DNA of 64,000 nt from contig JAHBUQ010000005.1 of the NCBI GenBank assembly GCA_019637995.1, positions 62,001 to 126,000 on the forward strand. The letters run 5' to 3'. This stretch comes from Ignavibacteriota bacterium. GTDB taxonomy: Bacteria; Bacteroidota; Ignavibacteria; Kapaibacteriales; UBA2268. A model generated the notes under the pieces. It was not told the DNA's origin. It saw only the letters and a list, made by a program, of their open reading frames with translations, and did not search any database. The position numbers were made by a program, and so were the translations under genes. This document shows positions 1,219-18,057 of this stretch, piece after piece (the stretch's first letter is position 1; each line of letters starts with the position of its first letter).

Positions 1219-1962
1219 TTATAATCTGATTGAATATTTACCGATATACAAATCAACATCTTTAGGAATAAATTCATTTCCCGGAAGTGTACCAATATGA
1301 AGTAAATCTCCATCGTGAATGATTTTATACATACCATTACTAATTATTTCAACAAAGTAATCCAAATCTAATTGGTTTTGTCTGTGTCTTTTTGAGTTCA
1401 TTTGTTGTGATATGAACGTTTGAACTAAAAATACTGCCTTTTTGCATTCCTTCTTTTTAGCTTCAGCTATAGTACCGGCTACTGATGTTAGTAATTGATA
1501 CTTTAATTGAGAAATAGTCTCAAGTTTTTGATTGAATAAGGCTGGGATTAATTCTTCAACTCTCTCTTTTGCCAAAGAGTCCTTATTTTTATCTTTGTCA
1601 ATAATTGCATCATAATATCTCTTTTCGACTGTCTTATCAAAAGCTTCATCAACTTTAGATTCGATTCCAACAACAATTTTATTTGCTGTATCCAAAATTA
1701 ATAAATCATGGTTTCTACCATTTCCACCATTTTTATCAAAATATGATACATATTCCGGTGATACTATTTCGGAGCAGACTTTTAAAGGCTTGATGGTATC
1801 AAGATATTCAACAGGTGCACCATTTATCCAGAGTTTAGCAGTTTCTTTTGCACTTCTGCCATCTTTCCAGTGCTCATCTTTCTTTTGTGGAGGACAAAGT
1901 CTTTTCCAATCATCAATAGTAATGATAGGTTCAGATTGATTCAGATTTTTACAGATAATCAT
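1219..1962 (-). CDS. PD-(D/E)XK nuclease-like protein of unknown function
   Basis: A 247-residue cytoplasmic protein. The N-terminal block (DDWKRLCPP near residue 17 and HWKDGRSAKE at 31-40) is characteristic of an uncharacterised family that I recall as DUF6946 (unverified). In the middle, an HD pair (85-86) in a beta-strand context is followed by E101-S-K103, which fits the D...ExK core of the PD-(D/E)XK nuclease fold. The activity is an inference. It sits alone at the left of the presumed defence cargo, in the same orientation as the restriction and HEPN genes. It could be a restriction-like effector or an orphan nuclease. No signal peptide or membrane segment is visible. Confidence 0.6.
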   Translation of the reverse strand: MIICKNLNQSEPIITIDDWKRLCPPQKKDEHWKDGRSAKETAKLWINGAPVEYLDTIKPLKVCSEIVSPEYVSYFDKNGGNGRNHDLLILDTANKIVVGIESKVDEAFDKTVEKRYYDAIIDKDKNKDSLAKERVEELIPALFNQKLETISQLKYQLLTSVAGTIAEAKKKECKKAVFLVQTFISQQMNSKRHRQNQLDLDYFVEIISNGMYKIIHDGDLLHIGTLPGNEFIPKDVDLYIGKYSIRL

Positions 1963-2132
1963 TTCTTAACCTTTTATTATTTATAAATTGATTATGTATT
2001 TTACATAATCTAATAAAATGCAAATTTCTCAGTTTACTTCATCATAAGTAGATTTATATACCATTAGGTCTATTTACTTATTTGTACAATTTATATCGCT
2101 AATCACATTATTTACAAATCAAATAAATAAAA

Positions 2133-2178
2133 TATAAACATTTACTATAAACATTCTATAAACATTCTATAAACAAAA
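2133..2178. repeat. Tandem 11-bp repeats (tataaacattc type)
   Basis: Four copies of an 11-bp unit begin at 2133, 2146, 2157 and 2168. The middle two are identical (tataaacattc), the outer two are variants, and 2 bases separate the first from the second. The array lies just downstream of a truncated minus-strand gene. It could be iterons, a protein-binding array, or simple slippage in AT-rich DNA. Confidence 0.6.
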
Positions 2179-2184
2179 TCAAAT

Positions 2185-2406
2185 TTATTTTACATAGTTT
2201 TTGTTTATAGAGTATTTAGCCCATCTTAGTTTGCCGATAACATTAATCTCATTGGATTTAACCATTTTATAAAGAAAATCTTTAATTTTCCTAATAGGAA
2301 TTTCAATTCCAATTCTATTATGTATTTCACTGGCAGAACTATTGGAATAAGTCTTTAAGTCTTGATAAATCAATTCATCTGAGGACTTCTCCTCAGGGGC
2401 AAGTCC
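2185..2406 (-). pseudogene. C-terminal fragment of a larger protein (winged-helix-like)
   Basis: The minus-strand frame is open from a stop at 2407-2409 to the stop at 2185 and has no ATG; the only candidate start is a TTG at 2373. The peptide contains SASEIHNRIG and IPIRKIKDFL, which looks like a helix-turn-helix or winged-helix tail of the kind found at the C-terminus of longer DNA-binding or ATPase proteins. With no N-terminal part and no start site, it is best read as the surviving 3' end of a deleted gene. The upstream boundary coincides with a hairpin (2381-2408). Confidence 0.45.
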
Positions 2407-2408
2407 TC
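2381..2408. repeat. Inverted repeat at a gene breakpoint
   Basis: gaggactt (2381-2388) and aagtcctc (2401-2408) form a perfect 8-bp stem with a 12-base GC-rich loop. It lies exactly where two truncated reading frames on opposite strands meet, so it may mark a deletion or insertion junction. Confidence 0.45.
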
Positions 2409-2615
2409 AAATATTATAGGGTCGAAGTTGATGGTGATTTTCATAAGTTAATTAAATATTGTTTCAACGGAAATCAGGAATATTCATGTCAGATAAATTT
2501 TACTTCCTATTTTGCAAATAATTCATACTACCCAATAATTGTTACACAAACTTTAGTAGCAATTAATGGAATCAATTCACTATTTTGGTTAAGATATTCT
2601 CAATATACATATTAA
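2409..2615 (+). pseudogene. Possible C-terminal remnant of an unknown gene
   Basis: A plus-strand frame without an ATG near its beginning runs through the junction hairpin to a TAA at 2613-2615. The peptide (VEVDGDFHKL near its start, ending LRYSQYTY) has protein-like composition, but I do not recognise it. It ends 6 bases before the stop of the convergent ApeA-like gene. It may be the 3' end of a displaced gene or a chance open frame. Confidence 0.2.
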
Positions 2616-2620
2616 ATCTA

Positions 2621-4057
2621 TTATTTAAAAAAACTTCTTGGGATAATTTCCTCAATTTCTTTTTGTTCCAAACCAATAACTCTAAAAAGTAGTATTTCCA
2701 GCAACACCTTCAATCTATGAATATATTTATTAAATAACTCATGATTATTATATGAGTTAGGAGCAGATACAAACAAATGAGATAAATAATTTCTAATATC
2801 GGCGATATCTCTTGTAAAGCAAGATTCATTGATACCCTTAAAAAACAAATTAGTTTTAAAATCAATCGAAAAATCTTGAACAATTAAATCAATCCTATTT
2901 TTTAAACTTAAATCGTTTAGTCTTTTTACTTCAGTGCAAATTTTACTTTTAAATGAATTATCAATATACTTTGGTAAAATATTTTTTATAGGATTGTATA
3001 TATCATCAACAAATTTCTCAGGGTCAATAATAGTTTTTCCATCTTGAAATATTCTTAATAAACCTTCAATTGCTTGGACATAAGACAAAAACTTATGTTC
3101 CATATACATATTTTGGTTAAATAAAATTGAAAAATACAATTCAAAAGCTAAACCAAATTCTTCAGATTCAATTATCCACTTACTTAAAATTTCAGAAATG
3201 TTCTCTTTAACATGAGAATAATTGAATAACATATTTTGAGCTAATTTTTCCTTACATTCATTAAAATCACCGCGCTGAGGGAAAACATATTTTATCTTTA
3301 AATCATTATTTAGAATGAAATTATCTATTTGTAAACCACATTCAGTTGGGAAAATTTTTATTTCCTTAGGGTATGCCTGCCCCCTCATAGCAAATGATAA
3401 AAGCGCTTGGAGTTTTGAAATAATCTTCTTAAAGTATGATAAACTTTTCCCTTCTGAATGATACAGACTAATGTATGATTTTACTTCAGATTGTTTTCTA
3501 ATATTATTAGGTGTTGTTGAAGTTAAATGACTTATAAATTCAATTTTCAAACCGTCTGATAAAACTACAACATCATTTAAAAGATAATCACTTTTCTTAA
3601 CTAAATTATCACTTTCTATAGCTGATTCATCCAAATTAAACCTTGAATCAAACCAATGAGAAAGATTAGTAAAAGATATATCAACCCTTGTTATGAGCAG
3701 TTCTGAGATTTTTTGAACATGATAACCTTCAATAAATTCATCGCAAGTAAAAAACGAATAATCAAAAACTCCATCAAGTGTTTTAGACATCGAAGGAAAT
3801 GAACCATAGCAGTCCAACAATGATATTCTATTGTTAAAACCGTATTGACCAAGAATCACCTGAAATGGTTGATTTTTTTTAAATAATTCCATACATGAAA
3901 AATGACCATAAAGCTTTAGAACTATATGATGTTTACCATCATATTTTGCTACACCTGCAATTTTTTCATCAGGATTTTCCGGAATCCACCAATAGCCTTC
4001 GAATATACCTTCTTTCTCCAAATCTGTAATCATATTTATTTCTTTATTAAAGTCCAT
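2621..4057 (-). CDS. ApeA-like HEPN anti-phage protein
   Basis: A 478-residue protein. The N-terminal part (EGIFEGYWWIPENPDEKIAG at about 17-36) matches the ApeA N-terminal domain type. The C-terminal 130 residues form a helical HEPN domain with the motif R422-N-Y-L-S-H427, the RX4H signature of HEPN ribonucleases. In the known ApeA family this architecture gives abortive protection against phage, presumably by RNA cleavage on infection. The gene starts 10 bases after the stop of the restriction-methylation gene and has a plausible AAGGGA ribosome site, so the two are probably one transcript. All key residues are present. Functional assignment is by architecture only. Confidence 0.75.
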   Translation of the reverse strand: MDFNKEINMITDLEKEGIFEGYWWIPENPDEKIAGVAKYDGKHHIVLKLYGHFSCMELFKKNQPFQVILGQYGFNNRISLLDCYGSFPSMSKTLDGVFDYSFFTCDEFIEGYHVQKISELLITRVDISFTNLSHWFDSRFNLDESAIESDNLVKKSDYLLNDVVVLSDGLKIEFISHLTSTTPNNIRKQSEVKSYISLYHSEGKSLSYFKKIISKLQALLSFAMRGQAYPKEIKIFPTECGLQIDNFILNNDLKIKYVFPQRGDFNECKEKLAQNMLFNYSHVKENISEILSKWIIESEEFGLAFELYFSILFNQNMYMEHKFLSYVQAIEGLLRIFQDGKTIIDPEKFVDDIYNPIKNILPKYIDNSFKSKICTEVKRLNDLSLKNRIDLIVQDFSIDFKTNLFFKGINESCFTRDIADIRNYLSHLFVSAPNSYNNHELFNKYIHRLKVLLEILLFRVIGLEQKEIEEIIPRSFFK

Positions 4058-4067
4058 CTTTTATCCC

Positions 4068-7000
4068 TTACACCTCAAATCTCTCATACTCTTCACTACT
4101 CATATCAAACTCCGGCTCAATTATTTTTACTTCGTCGTAAGTCAATTCATACAGCTTATACACCATCAAGTCTATCTGTTTTTCTTCTTTACTCGTGTCT
4201 TCATTCTTTTCTTTCTTGGCAAGGATAATATCTACTAAATCTATGAAGGGTTTTTGCTCTTCGGGTGTAATTTTGGGAATTGGTAACTCTAAAATTCCTT
4301 GAATTGTGATTTCGCCATTAATACCACCACTTTGATAATAATTTAAAAATGCAAATCTTGCTAATTTAGAATTAAGTATTGAAGTTAAAAATATATTTGA
4401 GTTTTTATGAATAATGAAATAACAAGTATTTAACAAATAATATTTAACAGCTGAGTTATTGTTATAAAATGCTTGTTCTTTAGAAGCCTTTGAAAAGCAA
4501 ATTTTTTCCTTATCAAATTCTTCAATATAAGCACAATTTCGAAGATTTGTCCAATGGTCACCTTGGTCAAGTCTTTTCAATAATTCGTTTTCATATTTTT
4601 TTAAATGTTCAAATAATTCTGGAAAATCTTTAGGAATATCTATACGTGGTATATTTTTTTCTTTTATGCCATTATGTGAATTAATAATCCATAAATCAGC
4701 AAATTCAACTTTAAATCTTTTAATATCACGTCCACGAAGTATTGGCTTAATAATCTCAGCAGATTTTGGGTTTTTGGCAATTAATTCATCTTTCTTTTTA
4801 TTATTTATTATAAATGCATCATTTAAACCAGAAGTAATACCTCGATTAATAATTAAATCCCAATCTTTAAGGGGAGTACCAATTCGTTCAATTTTCTCTT
4901 TGATTTGCAATTCAATGTTTGATGAAATCACCCATGCGTCTTTGCTAATTTTTGGCATCAATTGTTTATTAATTCCAAAATAATTTTCAATTGAAGTATC
5001 AATAGTAAAATCTTTATTTACGTTACAAGCATAAAATGGAAAATTGTTTTCATTGAACTTTGCACTAATGATTATATTTGTATCAACAGTAGCAGACTCG
5101 AACACTTTAAAACCGCAAAAATCAATTAACTTTAAAGGATTTGTTCTGTTTGAAAGGTAACCCCTGATTTGCTCTCCATATCCGGCACGCATCCATTTAT
5201 TTGATGTAATATAAGCAAGTAATCCAGAATTATTTAACATTTGAAATCCACGTTCAATAAAAATTGTATAGATATCAGTTGATTTTGTAAATGTTGAATA
5301 ATTCAAACTTGCTAAAACTTTCTTTATATTTTCGTTCAAAACTGTAATCGAAAAATACGGCGGATTCCCAATCACAACATCAAAACCAACAAAATCACCA
5401 TTTTCATTCAATACTTCAGGAAATTCAAAACGCCATTCAAAAGCATTGTCATATAATGGGTTATATGTGAAATCATTAAATATAGCTTCGTATTTCAACT
5501 TCTTTTTAGTAGCAATCTCAACTTCTTTTTCGTATTTAAGCTTATCGGCATCACTCATAAGTATTGAAAATTGTCCCTGTAATTTTTCGAGTTCACCTTT
5601 TGCATTATTAAAATCAATCATTCTTTTATCAAGTTGGTTGATTTCTTTTGAAAAATGATTCTTGATGTCATTAATTAACTTTTGTAATTCCTGCTTTACT
5701 TCACGATTCTTCTCATTTTTGTAATCCTGAACAAATCCCTGATATGCTTTTATATCATACTTTATACTTTTAAGAGCCTTTTTGAGGTCGCTATCCAGTG
5801 GGAATCTGCTAACAAGCGAGTTACCGCATTTAATATTAATATCAATATTCGGAAGTGTTTCAAGTTCCTTAAATCCGGTTTCTTCTTTATAATAAGCATT
5901 TTTGAGAAGCTCAATCCATAGACGTAATCTACAAATTATTACAGATTTTGGATTTATGTCCACTCCAAACAAACAGTTTTCGATAATTGTCTGTTTCTCT
6001 TGAAACAGAGTTTTCTGTAAACGTTGTATTTCACTATTGAGTGGTCTGTTATTTCTGATTTTATATTCAAAAATATCACCTTCAAAATTAGTAATTATCA
6101 GTTCATCATTTTCGACAACTATTTCATAATCCCGGATTCTTGTACCTGATGAATCTGCAAGAATGCCAAGTTCACTCTTAATAGCAATCATTTCATTAAG
6201 TGCAGAAACCAAAAAGTGTCCGCTACCAACTGCGGGGTCACAGATTCTGAGAGAGTTAATGACTTCATTAAATTCAAGTATGTCCTTTAATGTTTTACGG
6301 TCAACAAGGTAGTTTTTAATGTCGTTAAAGTGTTCAATATTCCAACCATACTGAACTCTGAATTTCTGAACCACAGCCAATCTGATTGATTCACGGCACA
6401 TATACATAGTAATGAATCCGGGTGTAAAGAATGAACCGTCTTTGTACCCGTTTATTTTTTCAAAAACCTTACCTAATACTGATGAATTTATCAGTAACTT
6501 ACTCTCTTCCTGAATTTCCTCTGAGCTTTCACCTGCAAAATCATAAGCATCAAGAAATTTGAATAAGTATTCGATAGTAGGTAATGATTTTGAAATTTTT
6601 CTATCTTCTTTTAGAATAGTACTACCGAAAAACTCAAGTTTTTCCGAATCATCAAGAGAGTTTATTTTGATTCCTTGTTGCTCAATATCACTGATTTCAA
6701 ATAGGGAGCTATTAAGATACGGTATTCTGATATATTTTGACTGGATTTTTTCTGTCCGGTCTTTTGGCAGTCTCGCCAGAACCTGATGAAAAAGTTTGTA
6801 AAGTTCATCAAAATCAAATATAACACCTTTATTTAAAAAGCGGTAACTTTTATCTCCATTGTGATAACTTACAAGCTGGGATTCAAGCAATTTCAAAAAT
6901 AGAATTCTATTAATCCATGTAATTACAAGTTCAAGTGCAATATTGAATAGCTGTTCATCTCTGGTATCTCCAAAAGTAGATAGGTTATGAATTTTTCCAA

Positions 7001-7877
7001 ACCCCTCAGTTTCAAGTAGATTGATAGTATTTTCAATTAAAGAACCTGAATTTCGGTTTGTCTTTTTTCTCTGGATGACAAACTTGCCTGAATCTTTTAT
7101 TTCCTCAAGCCCGATAATATGTAACAGCTCTTTATAAAATCCTGAATCAAGTGAGTTGCTATCGTCTGCAAACGGAACTTTCAAAAGATGGTTAGGTGAA
7201 AGAATTTTGTAGAGTGCAATTAGATTTTTATCATCTGATTTATCATCATTTCTGACGATATTATCGTAATCACGAATATCAAATTGAGTGCAGATAATTT
7301 CAGAATCAATTGTCGGTAAAATTTTTACAACTTCTTCATAGAAAAAAGGTGTATCCTTTTTATCATTGAGGTAGGTTTGATACAGATTTTTGATTTTAGT
7401 ATTTCGATAAATAACCTTATCAAAAACATTAGCATCAAAAATATACCATTCGTAAACGTTAGTAATAATTAGGTTTTTGAGTTCATTATTGTCTTGTTTA
7501 GAGCGTTCATCAAGGTAATACAGGATAATTTCAGATAAGGCTTTTGTAAAAGGTCGTTCGGGTGAAAACATTTCACTTTTGTTCCCCGGTCTTTTAGCTT
7601 CAATTATTACCCCAACTTTTTCTTTATTAGTTTTACCAAGATGAATTACAAGGTCTTTACTATCTTTAGTGTTAATCTCGTTAGATTCTAAATAATATGT
7701 ATCTCTGAGAAAATCCCGGATATGATTCTTTTGGTTTTCCTCTCTTTCAATTTCACTAACTTTACTTAAAAGTCTGATGAAATTAGCCTTAAACTTGTCA
7801 ATTTCATCACGTAACGGTCTTTTTTTTAAGAATGCTTTATTAAGTGATTGTTTAGGTTTGATACTTGTAAACTTCAT
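4068..7877 (-). CDS. Type IIG restriction enzyme / adenine-specific DNA methyltransferase (Eco57I class)
   Basis: A single-chain restriction-modification protein of about 1269 residues. Counting from the ATG at 7877, the N-terminus has a PD-(D/E)XK nuclease core (D75 ... E93-A-K95), then a helical connector, SAM-binding motif I DPAVGSGHF at about 547-555, the catalytic motif NPPY at about 838-841, and a C-terminal target-recognition region (GITSGLNDAF, LRGRDIKRF). The family methylates adenine and cuts nearby DNA. A start at 7898 is also possible, but the ATG at 7877 overlaps the TGA of a 39-codon upstream remnant (ATGA), a sign of translational coupling. It is followed by the ApeA-like gene in a defence operon. 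It is full length and appears intact. Confidence 0.88.
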   Translation of the reverse strand: MKFTSIKPKQSLNKAFLKKRPLRDEIDKFKANFIRLLSKVSEIEREENQKNHIRDFLRDTYYLESNEINTKDSKDLVIHLGKTNKEKVGVIIEAKRPGNKSEMFSPERPFTKALSEIILYYLDERSKQDNNELKNLIITNVYEWYIFDANVFDKVIYRNTKIKNLYQTYLNDKKDTPFFYEEVVKILPTIDSEIICTQFDIRDYDNIVRNDDKSDDKNLIALYKILSPNHLLKVPFADDSNSLDSGFYKELLHIIGLEEIKDSGKFVIQRKKTNRNSGSLIENTINLLETEGFGKIHNLSTFGDTRDEQLFNIALELVITWINRILFLKLLESQLVSYHNGDKSYRFLNKGVIFDFDELYKLFHQVLARLPKDRTEKIQSKYIRIPYLNSSLFEISDIEQQGIKINSLDDSEKLEFFGSTILKEDRKISKSLPTIEYLFKFLDAYDFAGESSEEIQEESKLLINSSVLGKVFEKINGYKDGSFFTPGFITMYMCRESIRLAVVQKFRVQYGWNIEHFNDIKNYLVDRKTLKDILEFNEVINSLRICDPAVGSGHFLVSALNEMIAIKSELGILADSSGTRIRDYEIVVENDELIITNFEGDIFEYKIRNNRPLNSEIQRLQKTLFQEKQTIIENCLFGVDINPKSVIICRLRLWIELLKNAYYKEETGFKELETLPNIDINIKCGNSLVSRFPLDSDLKKALKSIKYDIKAYQGFVQDYKNEKNREVKQELQKLINDIKNHFSKEINQLDKRMIDFNNAKGELEKLQGQFSILMSDADKLKYEKEVEIATKKKLKYEAIFNDFTYNPLYDNAFEWRFEFPEVLNENGDFVGFDVVIGNPPYFSITVLNENIKKVLASLNYSTFTKSTDIYTIFIERGFQMLNNSGLLAYITSNKWMRAGYGEQIRGYLSNRTNPLKLIDFCGFKVFESATVDTNIIISAKFNENNFPFYACNVNKDFTIDTSIENYFGINKQLMPKISKDAWVISSNIELQIKEKIERIGTPLKDWDLIINRGITSGLNDAFIINNKKKDELIAKNPKSAEIIKPILRGRDIKRFKVEFADLWIINSHNGIKEKNIPRIDIPKDFPELFEHLKKYENELLKRLDQGDHWTNLRNCAYIEEFDKEKICFSKASKEQAFYNNNSAVKYYLLNTCYFIIHKNSNIFLTSILNSKLARFAFLNYYQSGGINGEITIQGILELPIPKITPEEQKPFIDLVDIILAKKEKNEDTSKEEKQIDLMVYKLYELTYDEVKIIEPEFDMSSEEYERFEV

Positions 7878-7993
7878 GCCGGATTCCCAAATGAACATAG
7901 TACTAAAAGTAAAGAGTTTTCACTTTCATTAATCAACTGTATAAGACGTTTTTTTAAGTCTTTTGGCTCTTGATTTGTTATAAAATTGCTCAT
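7874..7993 (-). pseudogene. Fossil of a gene once coupled to the restriction enzyme (possible PLD/SNF2 helicase N-terminus)
   Basis: A 39-codon frame starts at ATG 7993 and reads MSNFITNQEPKDLKKRLIQL at its N-terminus, then ESENSLLLV, before an unrelated-looking short tail and a TGA that overlaps the ATG of the restriction gene. The start resembles the first residues of large SNF2-type helicases with an N-terminal phospholipase-D-like domain that accompany Eco57I-type enzymes; the match is from memory. The simplest reading is an internal deletion that joined the first 30 codons to the last few. A genuine leader peptide is the alternative. Confidence 0.45.
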
Positions 7994-9326: not shown

Positions 9327-9947
9327 TTATCTTTTTCCACGCCAAGATTCACCCTTCATTGGTATAACATTAAACATTTCTTTCATCCTATCAAAAACTT
9401 TACCTGAAAAACGTTGCTGTAGTTGTTTTAGGTCTAAATTTGATGTTGCGAAAGTTTTATAACCGTAACTTGTAAACATTCTGTATCTACGGCTCAAAAG
9501 AACATCAATAGGATCTTCGACAGTTCCAAAATGATAATGTTTTCCGCTGTCCTCACCCAAGTCATCAATCCCGATATTTGCTTCCTTATTGAAGTTTTCA
9601 ATACTTGGACGTCCGGTTTTTGTAAATTCATCAATAACTGTATCTGAATCAAACATTTCAAAAGTGTTTCTCAAATTCCTTTTAATTGTAAAAATTTGAA
9701 AAATATCTAATGCCATTGTTTTACCCGTACCATAACCTCCATTTATTAACAACCCTTTCTTTAAGTCGTGATTAAATTTATCGTCATTAGTAAAGTAATA
9801 TTTTAGCTCTTGAAAAACTACTTTATTATCATGATTAATTTCAAACTTCGAGTTTAAAGTTTTGCCTATCAGATTTAATAACTCATCGTCGCTCAGGTCT
9901 TTTACTTCTAACCTTTTTAGTATTTGTCCTAAAATTTGTATTTTCAT
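9327..9947 (-). CDS. DnaC/IstB-like helicase loader ATPase
   Basis: An AAA+ ATPase of 206 residues from the ATG at 9947. This start is preferred over an upstream TTG at 9959 because GGAG lies seven bases before it. Walker A is GGYGTGKT (about 70-77), Walker B is GIDDLGED (D128-D129), a sensor-like ATSNLDLKQL follows, and the C-terminus FDRMKEMFNVI...GESWRG is typical of DnaC-type loaders. The role is loading the host replicative helicase on DNA opened by the initiator encoded just upstream, from which it is separated by only 12 bases. The pair mirrors lambda O and P or satellite rep/loader pairs. No sign of decay. Confidence 0.82.
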   Translation of the reverse strand: MKIQILGQILKRLEVKDLSDDELLNLIGKTLNSKFEINHDNKVVFQELKYYFTNDDKFNHDLKKGLLINGGYGTGKTMALDIFQIFTIKRNLRNTFEMFDSDTVIDEFTKTGRPSIENFNKEANIGIDDLGEDSGKHYHFGTVEDPIDVLLSRRYRMFTSYGYKTFATSNLDLKQLQQRFSGKVFDRMKEMFNVIPMKGESWRGKR

Positions 9948-9959
9948 GTGGTACTCCAA

Positions 9960-10976
9960 TTATACATTATCAAAAGTTAAATTATAATTACCTTTACCAT
10001 TAGCTTGACCAACAGATGAAGATGTATTCTTTTTATTAGCATTTAAATTCTCAAGAATATTACCAAGTTTAGAAAACATGGTAAGTAGTGAATCAGGCCT
10101 AATGTACTTATCCTTAATACTTAAAGCATCTTTGAACAATTGCCTTAAATACTCAGTAAGTTCTTCCTCACTCATTTCAGGCTTACTTTGCTTGAAATAG
10201 TCCAAAAGGTGTTTAACTGCTTTGTTGTCTCTACCATACTTTACAGGCCAAAGAAAATTTTTATTTAACTGATATTCTTCCATCCAGATATCAAGTACCA
10301 TTGCGTTTAACGATTTAGCTTTAACAGAATTAGGTTCAATTATCTGTGGAGCTGCTTTAGCTTCTTCTTTCTTCTTCATTCTCTTACCTTTTTCTATAAC
10401 ATTATTATCTTCAACGAAAATATTTTTTTCGTTAATATTATTATCTATATCTATAGTATCTATAGGTGTAGTCATTTTTTTCGTTTTGTAAGTCATTTTT
10501 TCCGTTTTGTAAGTCATTCCATTTTCATCATTGTTGTAAGCTATTGATATATCGTTATTTACAACGTCGTTTTGTAAGTCATTTTTTTCGTTTTGTAAGT
10601 CATTTTTTTCGTTTTGTAAGTCATTTTTTAATAAATGGTTGACGGTTACAATAGTAAACTTGCTTGTTGGTGTCAAAGATATTTCGCCTTGAGTTTCTAA
10701 ATACTTCAAAATACGGTGAACTGTTTTCTGCGGTACATTTAATTTTTGTGATAATTCATACGTTCCGATACTGATTTTACCTATTGAAAGTCCACCCTTC
10801 GCCCACTTAGCTTGGTAGATGAGGTAGTTGAAAATGATATGATAGTTGGGTTTAAGATACCACTTTTTATTCCAATAATGGTCGGGTATCATTGCAAATG
10901 AACCAGTTTTTTTGATAGCTGGAGTAAGACCAGATTCAAGTTCAAGATTTGCACTATTTTGAAGTTTAGAATTCAT
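9960..10976 (-). CDS. Replication initiator with winged-helix domain and internal repeats
   Basis: A 338-residue protein. Residues about 25-115 form a winged-helix DNA-binding domain (helix-turn-helix around IGTYELSQKLNVPQKTVHRI), typical of phage and plasmid replisome organisers. The middle (about 115-170) is low complexity and encoded by two sets of 21-bp DNA repeats, giving NDLQNEK repeats in one frame and MTYKTEK/K repeats in another. The C-terminal part, after a basic linker (GKRMKKKEEAKAA), is helical and probably contacts the loader or helicase. It ends 12 bases before the loader start. The DNA repeats probably act as the origin that this protein binds. Specific family membership was not checked. 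Confidence 0.78.
   Translation of the reverse strand: MNSKLQNSANLELESGLTPAIKKTGSFAMIPDHYWNKKWYLKPNYHIIFNYLIYQAKWAKGGLSIGKISIGTYELSQKLNVPQKTVHRILKYLETQGEISLTPTSKFTIVTVNHLLKNDLQNEKNDLQNEKNDLQNDVVNNDISIAYNNDENGMTYKTEKMTYKTKKMTTPIDTIDIDNNINEKNIFVEDNNVIEKGKRMKKKEEAKAAPQIIEPNSVKAKSLNAMVLDIWMEEYQLNKNFLWPVKYGRDNKAVKHLLDYFKQSKPEMSEEELTEYLRQLFKDALSIKDKYIRPDSLLTMFSKLGNILENLNANKKNTSSSVGQANGKGNYNLTFDNV
10466..10625. repeat. Candidate replication origin: 21-bp iterons around an inverted repeat
   Basis: The core cgttttgtaagtcatt occurs at 10482-10497, 10503-10518, 10568-10583, 10589-10604 and 10610-10625, with a degenerate copy near 10466-10475. Within each array the period is exactly 21 bp. The two arrays are 65 bp apart, so the gene reads them in different frames. 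Between them gttgtaa (10533-10539) and ttacaac (10559-10565) form an inverted repeat around an AT-rich core. Conservation at DNA level despite the frame change indicates binding sites rather than a protein repeat. This arrangement inside an initiator gene resembles lambda ori within O. Confidence 0.75.
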
Positions 10977-15628: not shown

Positions 15629-15931
15629 CTAATTCTGGCTAAATAAATGATCAATTGCTGACTTAGAAAAATAGAGCTTCCTACCGATCCTTGTGAATTT
15701 TAGTTCTCCTGATCGGCACATTTTCCAAACTGATGTAGAACTTAATTTAAGTTCCTGCATTACTTCTTTACGTGTGTAAAGTTTGTCTTCCTGAACCGGA
15801 TTTCCGAAATTCAATTTGTACTCCGATAGTTCTTGCCGTATTGTAGCTCTAACTAATTTTACAAGCTTTTCAGGTTTCAAAATATGTTTTCCTTCATAAT
15901 GATAATAAATTATATTCAAATATAATACCAT
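15629..15931 (-). CDS. Excisionase-like helix-turn-helix protein
   Basis: A 100-residue protein whose C-terminal half (YTRKEVMQELKLSSTSVWKM, then RIGRKLYFSKSAIDHLF) is the MerR/excisionase-type helix-turn-helix with a wing. Such proteins bend att-site DNA to steer the integrase towards excision, or regulate the element. The N-terminal start is uncertain. A match to the Bacteroidota -10 box (TATATTTG on the minus strand, 15924-15917) lies inside the first codons of the longest reading; if it is used, translation must begin later, for example at a TTG at 15880 preceded by AAGGA. It is the first gene of the leftward element operon. Confidence 0.75.
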   Translation of the reverse strand: MVLYLNIIYYHYEGKHILKPEKLVKLVRATIRQELSEYKLNFGNPVQEDKLYTRKEVMQELKLSSTSVWKMCRSGELKFTRIGRKLYFSKSAIDHLFSQN

Positions 15932-16576: not shown

Positions 16577-17869
16577 TTAATCTTCCCATGCACTGCGGAC
16601 TTCATTAATTGCATCTGATTTGGCAATTCTAACATACCGCTGAAAACTTTTTTTATTTGTATGTCCTGATACCTGCATGATGACATCTTCCAATAAGCCT
16701 CTGCGGAGGCTTAAAGTTATAAATGTCCGGCGACCAGTATGTGAACTTATAAGTTCATATTTAGGTTTAATTTCATCTATTCGTTCAGAACCTATATTAT
16801 ATGTTAACTGAATATTATCTGTCATACCTGCTTCTTGACACAATTCTTTGATTGCTTCATTATATTTTTGGCTTGATATTTTTGGAAACTTTGATTTATA
16901 TTTCTTCAAAATTACTTGTAGTTTTGTTGTAATCGGTACAATCAGCGGATCTTTTGTTTTTACAGTGTAAATTGAAATTATCTTTTCTTCAAAATTAATA
17001 TTTTCGGGTTTTAAATTTATGAGGTCAGAGAATCTTAAACCGCAATAACATTGGGTTAGGAACATATCACGGGTTCGTTCCAATCGCGGTGATAAATCTG
17101 TTATGTTTTCAATTGCTTCAAGTTCTGATTTATTCAATGCTATTTTTGTTGTTTTTTCATCAAAGATTTTAAGTGATTTAATGAATGTCCGGTTGTTATG
17201 AAAACCTTTTTCAAGAGACCAGTGCATAAACGTCTTTACAATTTTCACAAGTCTCCCCTGCGAATTATTTGCTAATTTCTTCTCCGTAAGGTAATTTGTT
17301 AAGTTTGCAAAAAAAGTATCATTTATATCGTCAAAATATAATTCTTTTTTTTTGCCTTTAGATAATTCTATAAGATGATTTTTTGTGGTCACATAGCTTG
17401 TTATTGTTGATTTTTTAATACGTTTACCGCTACCGGATAATCTTGCTCCTGTTGTTGTATCTTCTATAAATAAATCGAATACCCGCATAAATGATATTTG
17501 CTTTGAATCATTTTTATCTTTACTCTGCTTAAATTCCCGATTATTAATTATAGCATCTAAAACAGTCTTGGTTTCTTTAACTGTAGGAACTCTGTTTAAT
17601 TCTTTTTCGCTTTCTGCAAAATAATTTTTCATTTTTACACGAATATCATCTAATTTATCATTTATCTGGCGGGGGTTCTTAGACGATGCTTTTGCACGTT
17701 GTTTTCTTATATCCCATAGATTTTCTTCAATATTAATTTTTAAAGTTGTACGAATTCGTTGATTATTCCATGCAACGGAAATCAGGATAAAATGATATGT
17801 TTTTTCTTTAACTACCTTCTGCAAATAATAGTTTATTTTATACTCACCCACTAAACACCTATAATTCAA
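16577..17869 (-). CDS. Tyrosine recombinase (integrase)
   Basis: A 430-residue integrase of the type common in Bacteroidota elements: an N-terminal arm-binding domain (about 10-95), a SAM-like core-binding domain (about 125-230) and a catalytic domain (about 245-425). Catalytic residues are all visible: R279 (CGLRFSDL), a lysine in the beta-hairpin near 304-306, H377-T-G-R380, H403 (SGHT) and the nucleophile Y412. It catalyses integration and excision at the attachment site, which lies about 150 bases upstream at 18024-18046. It appears intact, so the element may still be mobile. The gene is convergent with the zinc-ribbon gene. Confidence 0.93.
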   Translation of the reverse strand: MNYRCLVGEYKINYYLQKVVKEKTYHFILISVAWNNQRIRTTLKINIEENLWDIRKQRAKASSKNPRQINDKLDDIRVKMKNYFAESEKELNRVPTVKETKTVLDAIINNREFKQSKDKNDSKQISFMRVFDLFIEDTTTGARLSGSGKRIKKSTITSYVTTKNHLIELSKGKKKELYFDDINDTFFANLTNYLTEKKLANNSQGRLVKIVKTFMHWSLEKGFHNNRTFIKSLKIFDEKTTKIALNKSELEAIENITDLSPRLERTRDMFLTQCYCGLRFSDLINLKPENINFEEKIISIYTVKTKDPLIVPITTKLQVILKKYKSKFPKISSQKYNEAIKELCQEAGMTDNIQLTYNIGSERIDEIKPKYELISSHTGRRTFITLSLRRGLLEDVIMQVSGHTNKKSFQRYVRIAKSDAINEVRSAWED

Positions 17870-18023: not shown

Positions 18024-18046
18024 GGGTTCAAATCCCTCTCTGACCA
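18024..18046 (+). other. Attachment site (attR) made of a tRNA 3'-end fragment
   Basis: gggttcaaatccctctctga and the following cca form the T-loop, T-stem 3' strand, acceptor 3' strand and discriminator of a tRNA. The sequence upstream of 18024 does not pair and there is no cloverleaf, so this is a fragment, not a gene. The acceptor would begin GGTCAGA. It is directly followed by the original tRNA's terminator. The intact tRNA with the other attachment site should lie to the left, outside the window or beyond an unrecognised boundary. Confidence 0.7.
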
Positions 18047-18057
18047 CGTAAAATTTA

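Follow-up and report, generated by a model that had tools for sequence, protein, structure and literature searches.

A candidate replication origin inside the initiator gene of an integrative element from the Kapaibacteria

Replication origins that lie within the gene of their own initiator are already known from lambda, P22, L, SPP1 and pSK41. Gene O of Salmonella phage L (gene 18; MW013502) contains an origin built of 11-bp repeats in a 3+3 arrangement (PMC8022706), annotated at gene positions 397-473. In lambda, the central part of the initiator gene holds iterons and an AT-rich region, and a helicase-loading partner is encoded in the same operon (PMC5043065, PMC7466680). The oriL of SPP1 consists of direct repeats within initiator gene 38 with an AT-rich unwinding element, and a dedicated loader gene adjoins it (PMC6316719). 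In pSK41, a RepA_N plasmid, the Rep boxes are inside rep, the origin-encoded linker between the two domains is dispensable and the protein has a DnaD-like fold (PMC5703833).

We analysed a stretch of 64,000 nucleotides from an Ignavibacteriota bacterium, here called the window, in which a gene of this layout is present. We assign a probability of about 0.88 to the reading that window positions 10395-10625 are the replication origin of an integrative element of ~37 kb, located inside the element's own initiator gene and using a Rep-iteron mechanism. The assignment is based on the homology and layout of the gene, on the reading frames of the arrays and on covariation among relatives.

The rep gene, its loader and the carrier element

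The rep gene (9960..10976, minus strand) is an open reading frame for an O-type/DnaD-like initiator of 338 aa, identified by a profile match and by PHROG families named ‘DnaD-like helicase loader’ (E 1e-10). Directly downstream on the same strand (9327..9959) is a gene for a DnaC/DnaI-like helicase loader with the Walker A motif GGYGTGKT, which matches DnaC-like loaders with E 9e-13. An AlphaFold model of Rep, made from a 12-sequence alignment, contains a winged-helix (wHTH) DNA-binding domain at residues about 31-118 (10623..10886, minus strand; also delimited by hhalign) with block pLDDT about 74-90, a C-terminal helical domain at residues about 223-310 (10047..10310, minus strand), and a predicted disordered stretch between the two folded domains (residues 120-219). 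The tail is likewise predicted to be disordered, yet its motif SSVGQA..GNYNL (9978..10019, minus strand), found by Rep comparison, is strongly conserved as SSVGQA..G(N/D)Y(N/S)L across the three Kapaibacteria-type Reps (window, L002 and L003), and we consider it a candidate contact peptide for the loader or the helicase. The loader model, based on three sequences, was poor (mean pLDDT 51) and was left out of the analysis.

Pfam and NCBIfam gave no O-type match for Rep, and no match to Pfam RepA_N was found. Generic wHTH regulators head the Foldseek list, with the centromere-binding wHTH proteins AspA and pNOB8 among the weak matches. The entries 4pt7 and 4pql, which we take to be the N-terminal domain of pSK41 Rep, are also weak Foldseek matches (E about 0.011-0.021) and stand alongside generic wHTH proteins.

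The element that carries rep is about 36.9 kb long and is bounded by two tRNA-Phe 3' fragments, the right one at 18024..18047 (plus strand) and the left one beyond the window at G000:C5:43106-43124. Domain matches identify a tyrosine integrase (16577..17869, minus strand) and an excisionase-like HTH_17 protein (15629..15931, minus strand). Both tRNA-Phe 3' ends are flanked by a similar repeat, GTTTTGAC[A/G]AAAGTTTTGACAGTTT, a putative integrase arm repeat. ARAGORN reported no tRNA in the window because the window holds only the 3' end of tRNA-Phe; contig C4 holds the intact tRNA-Phe and one further 3' fragment. The sites at C4:11240, C4:58008, C5:43106 and window 18024-18047 thus comprise one intact copy and three 3' fragments, which suggests that several elements have integrated serially at a single tRNA-Phe site.

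The cargo includes copper/heavy-metal efflux, type IIG restriction-modification, ApeA-HEPN, DUF6946, an anti-restriction protein and a serine recombinase. A row of defence-type genes occupies window positions 1219-7898, with a DUF6946/PD-(D/E)XK-like protein, ApeA-HEPN (PADLOC PDC-S58) and a type IIG restriction-methyltransferase. Between the attachment sites, the larger ORFs included none recognisable as a capsid, portal or terminase gene, and because virion structural and packaging genes were not recognised there, identification as a lambda-like prophage was dropped. Phage-inducible chromosomal islands (PICI) are described as having a primase/rep module, an origin immediately 3' of rep and a size of about 15 kb (PMC6092414); here rep itself contains the iterons, the adjoining DNA showed no recognisable primase and the element is about 37 kb, and this assignment was also rejected. 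The carrier, inserted at tRNA-Phe, is one of a family of integrative elements with a replication module rather than a demonstrated prophage.

Iteron arrays read in two frames

On the rep strand the 16-bp core AATGACTTACAAAACG is present five times without mismatch. Three copies nearer the start of rep (10610..10625, 10589..10604 and 10568..10583, minus strand; gene positions 352, 373 and 394) form one array in frame 0, where they encode the peptide NDLQNEK, and two further copies (10503..10518 and 10482..10497, minus strand; gene positions 459 and 480) form a second array in frame 2, where they encode MTYKTEK. The period is 21 bp in both arrays, which are offset by 65 bp (10503 vs 10568). A preliminary description of this DNA had proposed these five exact copies, their period, the offset and the two translations; the coordinates and the rep frames bear all of this out. 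In 2000 synonymous-codon shuffles that kept the protein, no 16-mer reached more than three copies, and the lag-21 self-match of rep was equalled only once. Codon use therefore does not explain five exact copies in two frames. The whole genome (3.92 Mb) contains no other exact copy; the next-best match has one mismatch, and matches with one or two mismatches are about as frequent as in a reversed-pattern control.

The same description had also placed an inverted repeat between the arrays and added one degenerate copy, and these parts hold less well. The 49-bp spacer (10519..10567, minus strand) does contain a weak inverted repeat with 7-bp arms (10533-10539 and 10559-10565), but 4.5% of spacer shuffles match it, and we regard it as marginal and give it no evidential weight. 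An iteron-like site also exists in the spacer, but the best candidate (10530-10545) has 5 mismatches in 16 positions. The most AT-rich stretch of rep (84-86%; 10395..10450, minus strand) is a candidate unwinding element, and the peak of AT content begins 31-37 nt past the last iteron, on its 3' side. A DnaA-box scan gave three sites with one mismatch in 2 kb, a result that is not interpretable.

The iterons encode Rep residues about 118-165 and are therefore located at the start of the linker, so that the segment of Rep specified by the arrays is predicted to be flexible and disordered. Because such a stretch serves only as a flexible linker, the DNA would be free to evolve binding sites in any frame.

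The nearest homologue, G022, has a Rep of 40% identity followed by a loader of 52% identity. Its rep contains five copies of CCGTCATCAAAACAC (three exact, one with one mismatch and one with three) at the same place and in the same 3+2 layout as the window gene, and the sequence, the period (22 bp) and the peptides differ. The copies are read in frames 0, 1 and 2 and then 2 and 0, giving PSSKTQKP, PVIKTRKN, NRHQKTVV, LRHQNTEN and PSSKHEIS. Layout and position persist where peptide and frame differ; what is conserved is therefore the DNA rather than the peptide. It had been anticipated that homologues would keep DNA repeats in variable frames, as expected if selection acts on DNA sites, and G022 behaves in just this way, with three frames and unlike peptides. 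In the window gene and in that of G022, the 50-nt segment with the highest AT content of the whole gene begins 31-50 nt past the second array, on its 3' side.

A second homologue, G011, has only a short 11-bp repeat, together with in-frame 63-bp repeats and a stop codon. Three 63-bp repeats span L003:1310-1532, the third carrying an in-frame TGA; either this rep is interrupted at the TGA or the assembly is in error there. The G022 and G011 elements share an integrase (48% identity), an excisionase, rep and the loader with the window element, and G022 has several unknown core genes in common with it as well. A search with the loader alignment returned only two loci in the genome contigs and none in IMG/VR.

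Relatives of the initiator and covariation with the arrays

Direct tblastn of the window Rep against phages and a direct search of IMG/VR with it gave no match, and the kinship with O-type initiators surfaced only through genome relatives and profiles. A Rep profile search of 395 genomes returned wHTH-linker-C-terminal-domain genes of the same kind across the phylum. One Bacteroidota relative, L027, matches O/gp18 of phage L, ST64T and others by tblastn (39.5% identity over 124 aa, E 6e-16), and also matches Vibrio phages and DnaD-like proteins of Listeria and Bacillus. With hhalign, the wHTH of the window, G022 and G011 aligned to the O-like family over 88 columns (probability 98.5, E 2.5e-15), and the O-like family aligned to phage L O (probability 99.4, E 1.3e-21); the window set against phage L O alone was weaker (probability 65.5, E 5.8e-5). 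These comparisons indicate that the Rep wHTH belongs to the O-type initiator family. With that family rep shares a homologous wHTH, iterons in the linker after it, an AT-rich flank and an adjacent gene for a helicase loader or helicase, here the loader. The winged-helix initiator and adjoining DnaC-like loader of the preliminary description are thus upheld by the profile match and by the position of the loader gene. Its label ‘lambda O/P-type’ fits the O part by homology; the P part fits by analogy only, the loader being a DnaC/DnaI-type ATPase.

Arrays in the wider family were sought as self-similarity at lags of 10-24, excluding multiples of three so that only frame-breaking periods count, and were compared with synonymous shuffles at p<=0.01. 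The test is silent on the window rep because 21 is 3x7; there the evidence is the change of frame between arrays. Among Bacteroidota relatives, 18 of 33 pass, against none of 62 neighbouring ORFs. Their periods are 11 bp (12 genes), 23 bp (3), 22 bp (2) and 14 bp (1), and the arrays, with a single exception, begin immediately behind the wHTH, at 322-433 nt from the start of the gene. Among relatives in IMG/VR 51 of 69 distinct genes pass, 49 of them with an 11-bp period, and in a later viral set 59 of 69 pass. Depending on the set, about 15% to 45% of relatives lack a significant frame-breaking array.

Several further features were noted alongside. Just 3' of the arrays, many members (for example L070-L073 and L079) have a conserved A-rich DNA segment (ACAAACAAGAATGATAAGAATG..., peptide NKNDKN), which could be an unwinding or single-strand-capture element. 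The genome of the window has another initiator gene of the wHTH/DnaD-like type, with repeats of 10/11/21 bp (L008:797-1105 and 1102-2169; G000:C4, about 252.7-254.1 kb), preceded by a 102-aa ORF that by eye resembles an isolated DnaA DNA-binding domain. The record PP511318.1 (L204; ‘Dulem virus 31’, 35.8 kb) is filed under Microviridae, for which it is far too long, and has replisome-organizer and exonuclease genes; this taxonomy looks wrong.

Within the family, the array varies with the third residue of the recognition helix (S/T-x-[R/Q]-x-V/I-R-T): genes with Arg have [C/T]GAC and those with Gln have [C/T]AAC. Side chains of Arg and Gln have a classical preference for guanine and adenine, respectively. 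Of the genes in the first viral set, 19 combined Arg with GAC and 44 combined Gln with AAC; none contradicted the rule and one was left without a call. For the viral set together with 12 genome loci, whose motif was read by eye, agreement was 76/76. A fresh set of 62 Arg/Gln genes gave 12 Arg-GAC and 43 Gln-AAC cases, again with no contradiction, and the seven genes that the strict pattern left uncalled agree on inspection. A cruder automatic call on 131 genes was concordant in 36/37 and 79/85 cases (Fisher p 1.7e-23). Plain counts of GACMA against AACMA give a wrong call for two genes, since the spacers of GAC arrays contain AAC as well, and requiring periodicity cures this. Motifs differed as expected in 52/52 disjoint Arg/Gln pairs (55-87% identity in the masked wHTH), a few genes recurring between the scans. 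The clearest pair, L071 (SEQ, AACCA) and L072 (SER, GACCA), is 87% identical with both the helix residue and the array switched. Lys at residue 3 accompanies GGC in L209, L213, L268, L331 and others; the covariation of residue and triplet (Arg-GAC, Gln-AAC, Lys-GGC) was seen across rep-like genes L071, L072 and L119-L366.

The best tree has 13 switches of each trait; it was built from about 100 columns with few branches resolved, so that the covariation falls mostly on weakly supported branches and the well-supported ones hold only 2-3 independent pairs. The covariation supports the view that initiators of this family read repeats within their own genes. If residue 3 sets the array triplet, a switch of specificity would take one residue together with a change in every array copy, in any frame. 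The window Rep carries Lys at the equivalent site, and GGC is missing from the window iteron; the Arg/Gln code is therefore not transferable to this Rep, whose docking on DNA may differ. We think it probable that O-type initiators of Bacteroidota and of other phages and elements use a readable code (Arg-GAC, Gln-AAC, Lys-GGC) for the helically phased arrays in their genes, and that the Kapaibacteria elements form a divergent branch, in which the units are 21-22 bp and recognition follows its own rules. A limited search of open papers found no description of a frame-free 11-bp array rule across Bacteroidota initiators or of the Arg/Gln code.

Proposed mechanism, alternatives and known systems

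In the mechanism we propose, the N-terminal wHTH of Rep would bind the five direct iterons (3+2), which are spaced by two helical turns, and this binding would strain and open the adjoining AT-rich stretch. The C-terminal domain and tail would recruit the neighbouring DnaC-like loader, which in turn would put the host replicative helicase onto the opened origin, and the excised element would presumably replicate from there.

The arrays could instead be an operator through which Rep regulates transcription of rep and the loader, with the origin elsewhere in the element. Such a role suits a wHTH protein, as these are frequently repressors and generic regulators of this fold lead the Foldseek list, and binding inside a gene can stop elongation. 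The arrays are, however, about 350-500 nt into the gene and away from a promoter position, the homologous gene of phage L is annotated with an origin in the same position, and the AT-rich stretch is on the same side in three genes (window, G022 and phage L). We consider a purely regulatory site unlikely, and the same binding sites could serve both roles.

Still less probable, in our estimate, is that the repeats arose by tandem duplication or were selected as peptide repeats, with DNA identity as a by-product. The 21-bp unit keeps frame within each array, the linker peptide is repetitive and the G011 homologue has its in-frame 63-bp repeats, all as this account would have it, but it is already contradicted by the identical 16-bp core that the two arrays read in different frames, by the 22-bp spacing and unrelated peptides of G022, by the 11-bp period that breaks frame at each step in most relatives, and by the covariation of array bases with the recognition helix. 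Equally slight is the chance of a partition (centromere-like) site with Rep as the centromere-binding protein, a role brought up by the weak Foldseek matches to AspA and pNOB8: the adjoining gene encodes a DnaC-like loader and not a ParA-type or tubulin-like NTPase, the element is chromosomal and the relatives are phage replication initiators.

An origin within its own initiator gene, the reading we prefer, means that site and reader are inherited together and that one stretch of DNA provides both binding sites and peptide. The two-frame arrays, the frame-breaking relatives and the Arg/Gln covariation point to the solution, which is to place the sites in a sequence-tolerant disordered linker. 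This opens a route to locating origins and predicting initiator specificity from sequence in uncultured phages and integrative elements, and the natural near-identical pairs make the evolution of a new replication specificity testable.

Among described systems, phage L is like the window in its O-type wHTH, in two short direct-repeat arrays that are split by a spacer and located in the linker after the wHTH, and in an AT-rich peak at the 3' end of the arrays in gene O. It differs in its 11-bp repeat, TGTCCAACGGA, compared with the 21-bp units of the window, and in being followed by a DnaB-type helicase gene (P22 gp12 type) rather than a DnaC-type loader; L is a phage, whereas the carrier here is an element without recognised virion genes. 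The lambda arrangement of origin and partner gene resembles that of the window, but its iterons measure about 19 bp and have inverted symmetry, and its P protein is a functional analogue only. In SPP1 the origin repeats in the initiator gene, the AT-rich element and the loader gene next to it (gp38-gp39) are similar, but gp39 is another kind of loader and SPP1 is a lytic phage with its own helicase, gp40. In pSK41 the binding boxes in rep likewise encode a linker between domains, but pSK41 is a plasmid whose Rep contacts primase, there is no detectable sequence relation and generic wHTH proteins match equally well. The window system is a new, divergent member of the long-known O-type intragenic-origin kind, carried on an integrative element of the Kapaibacteria.
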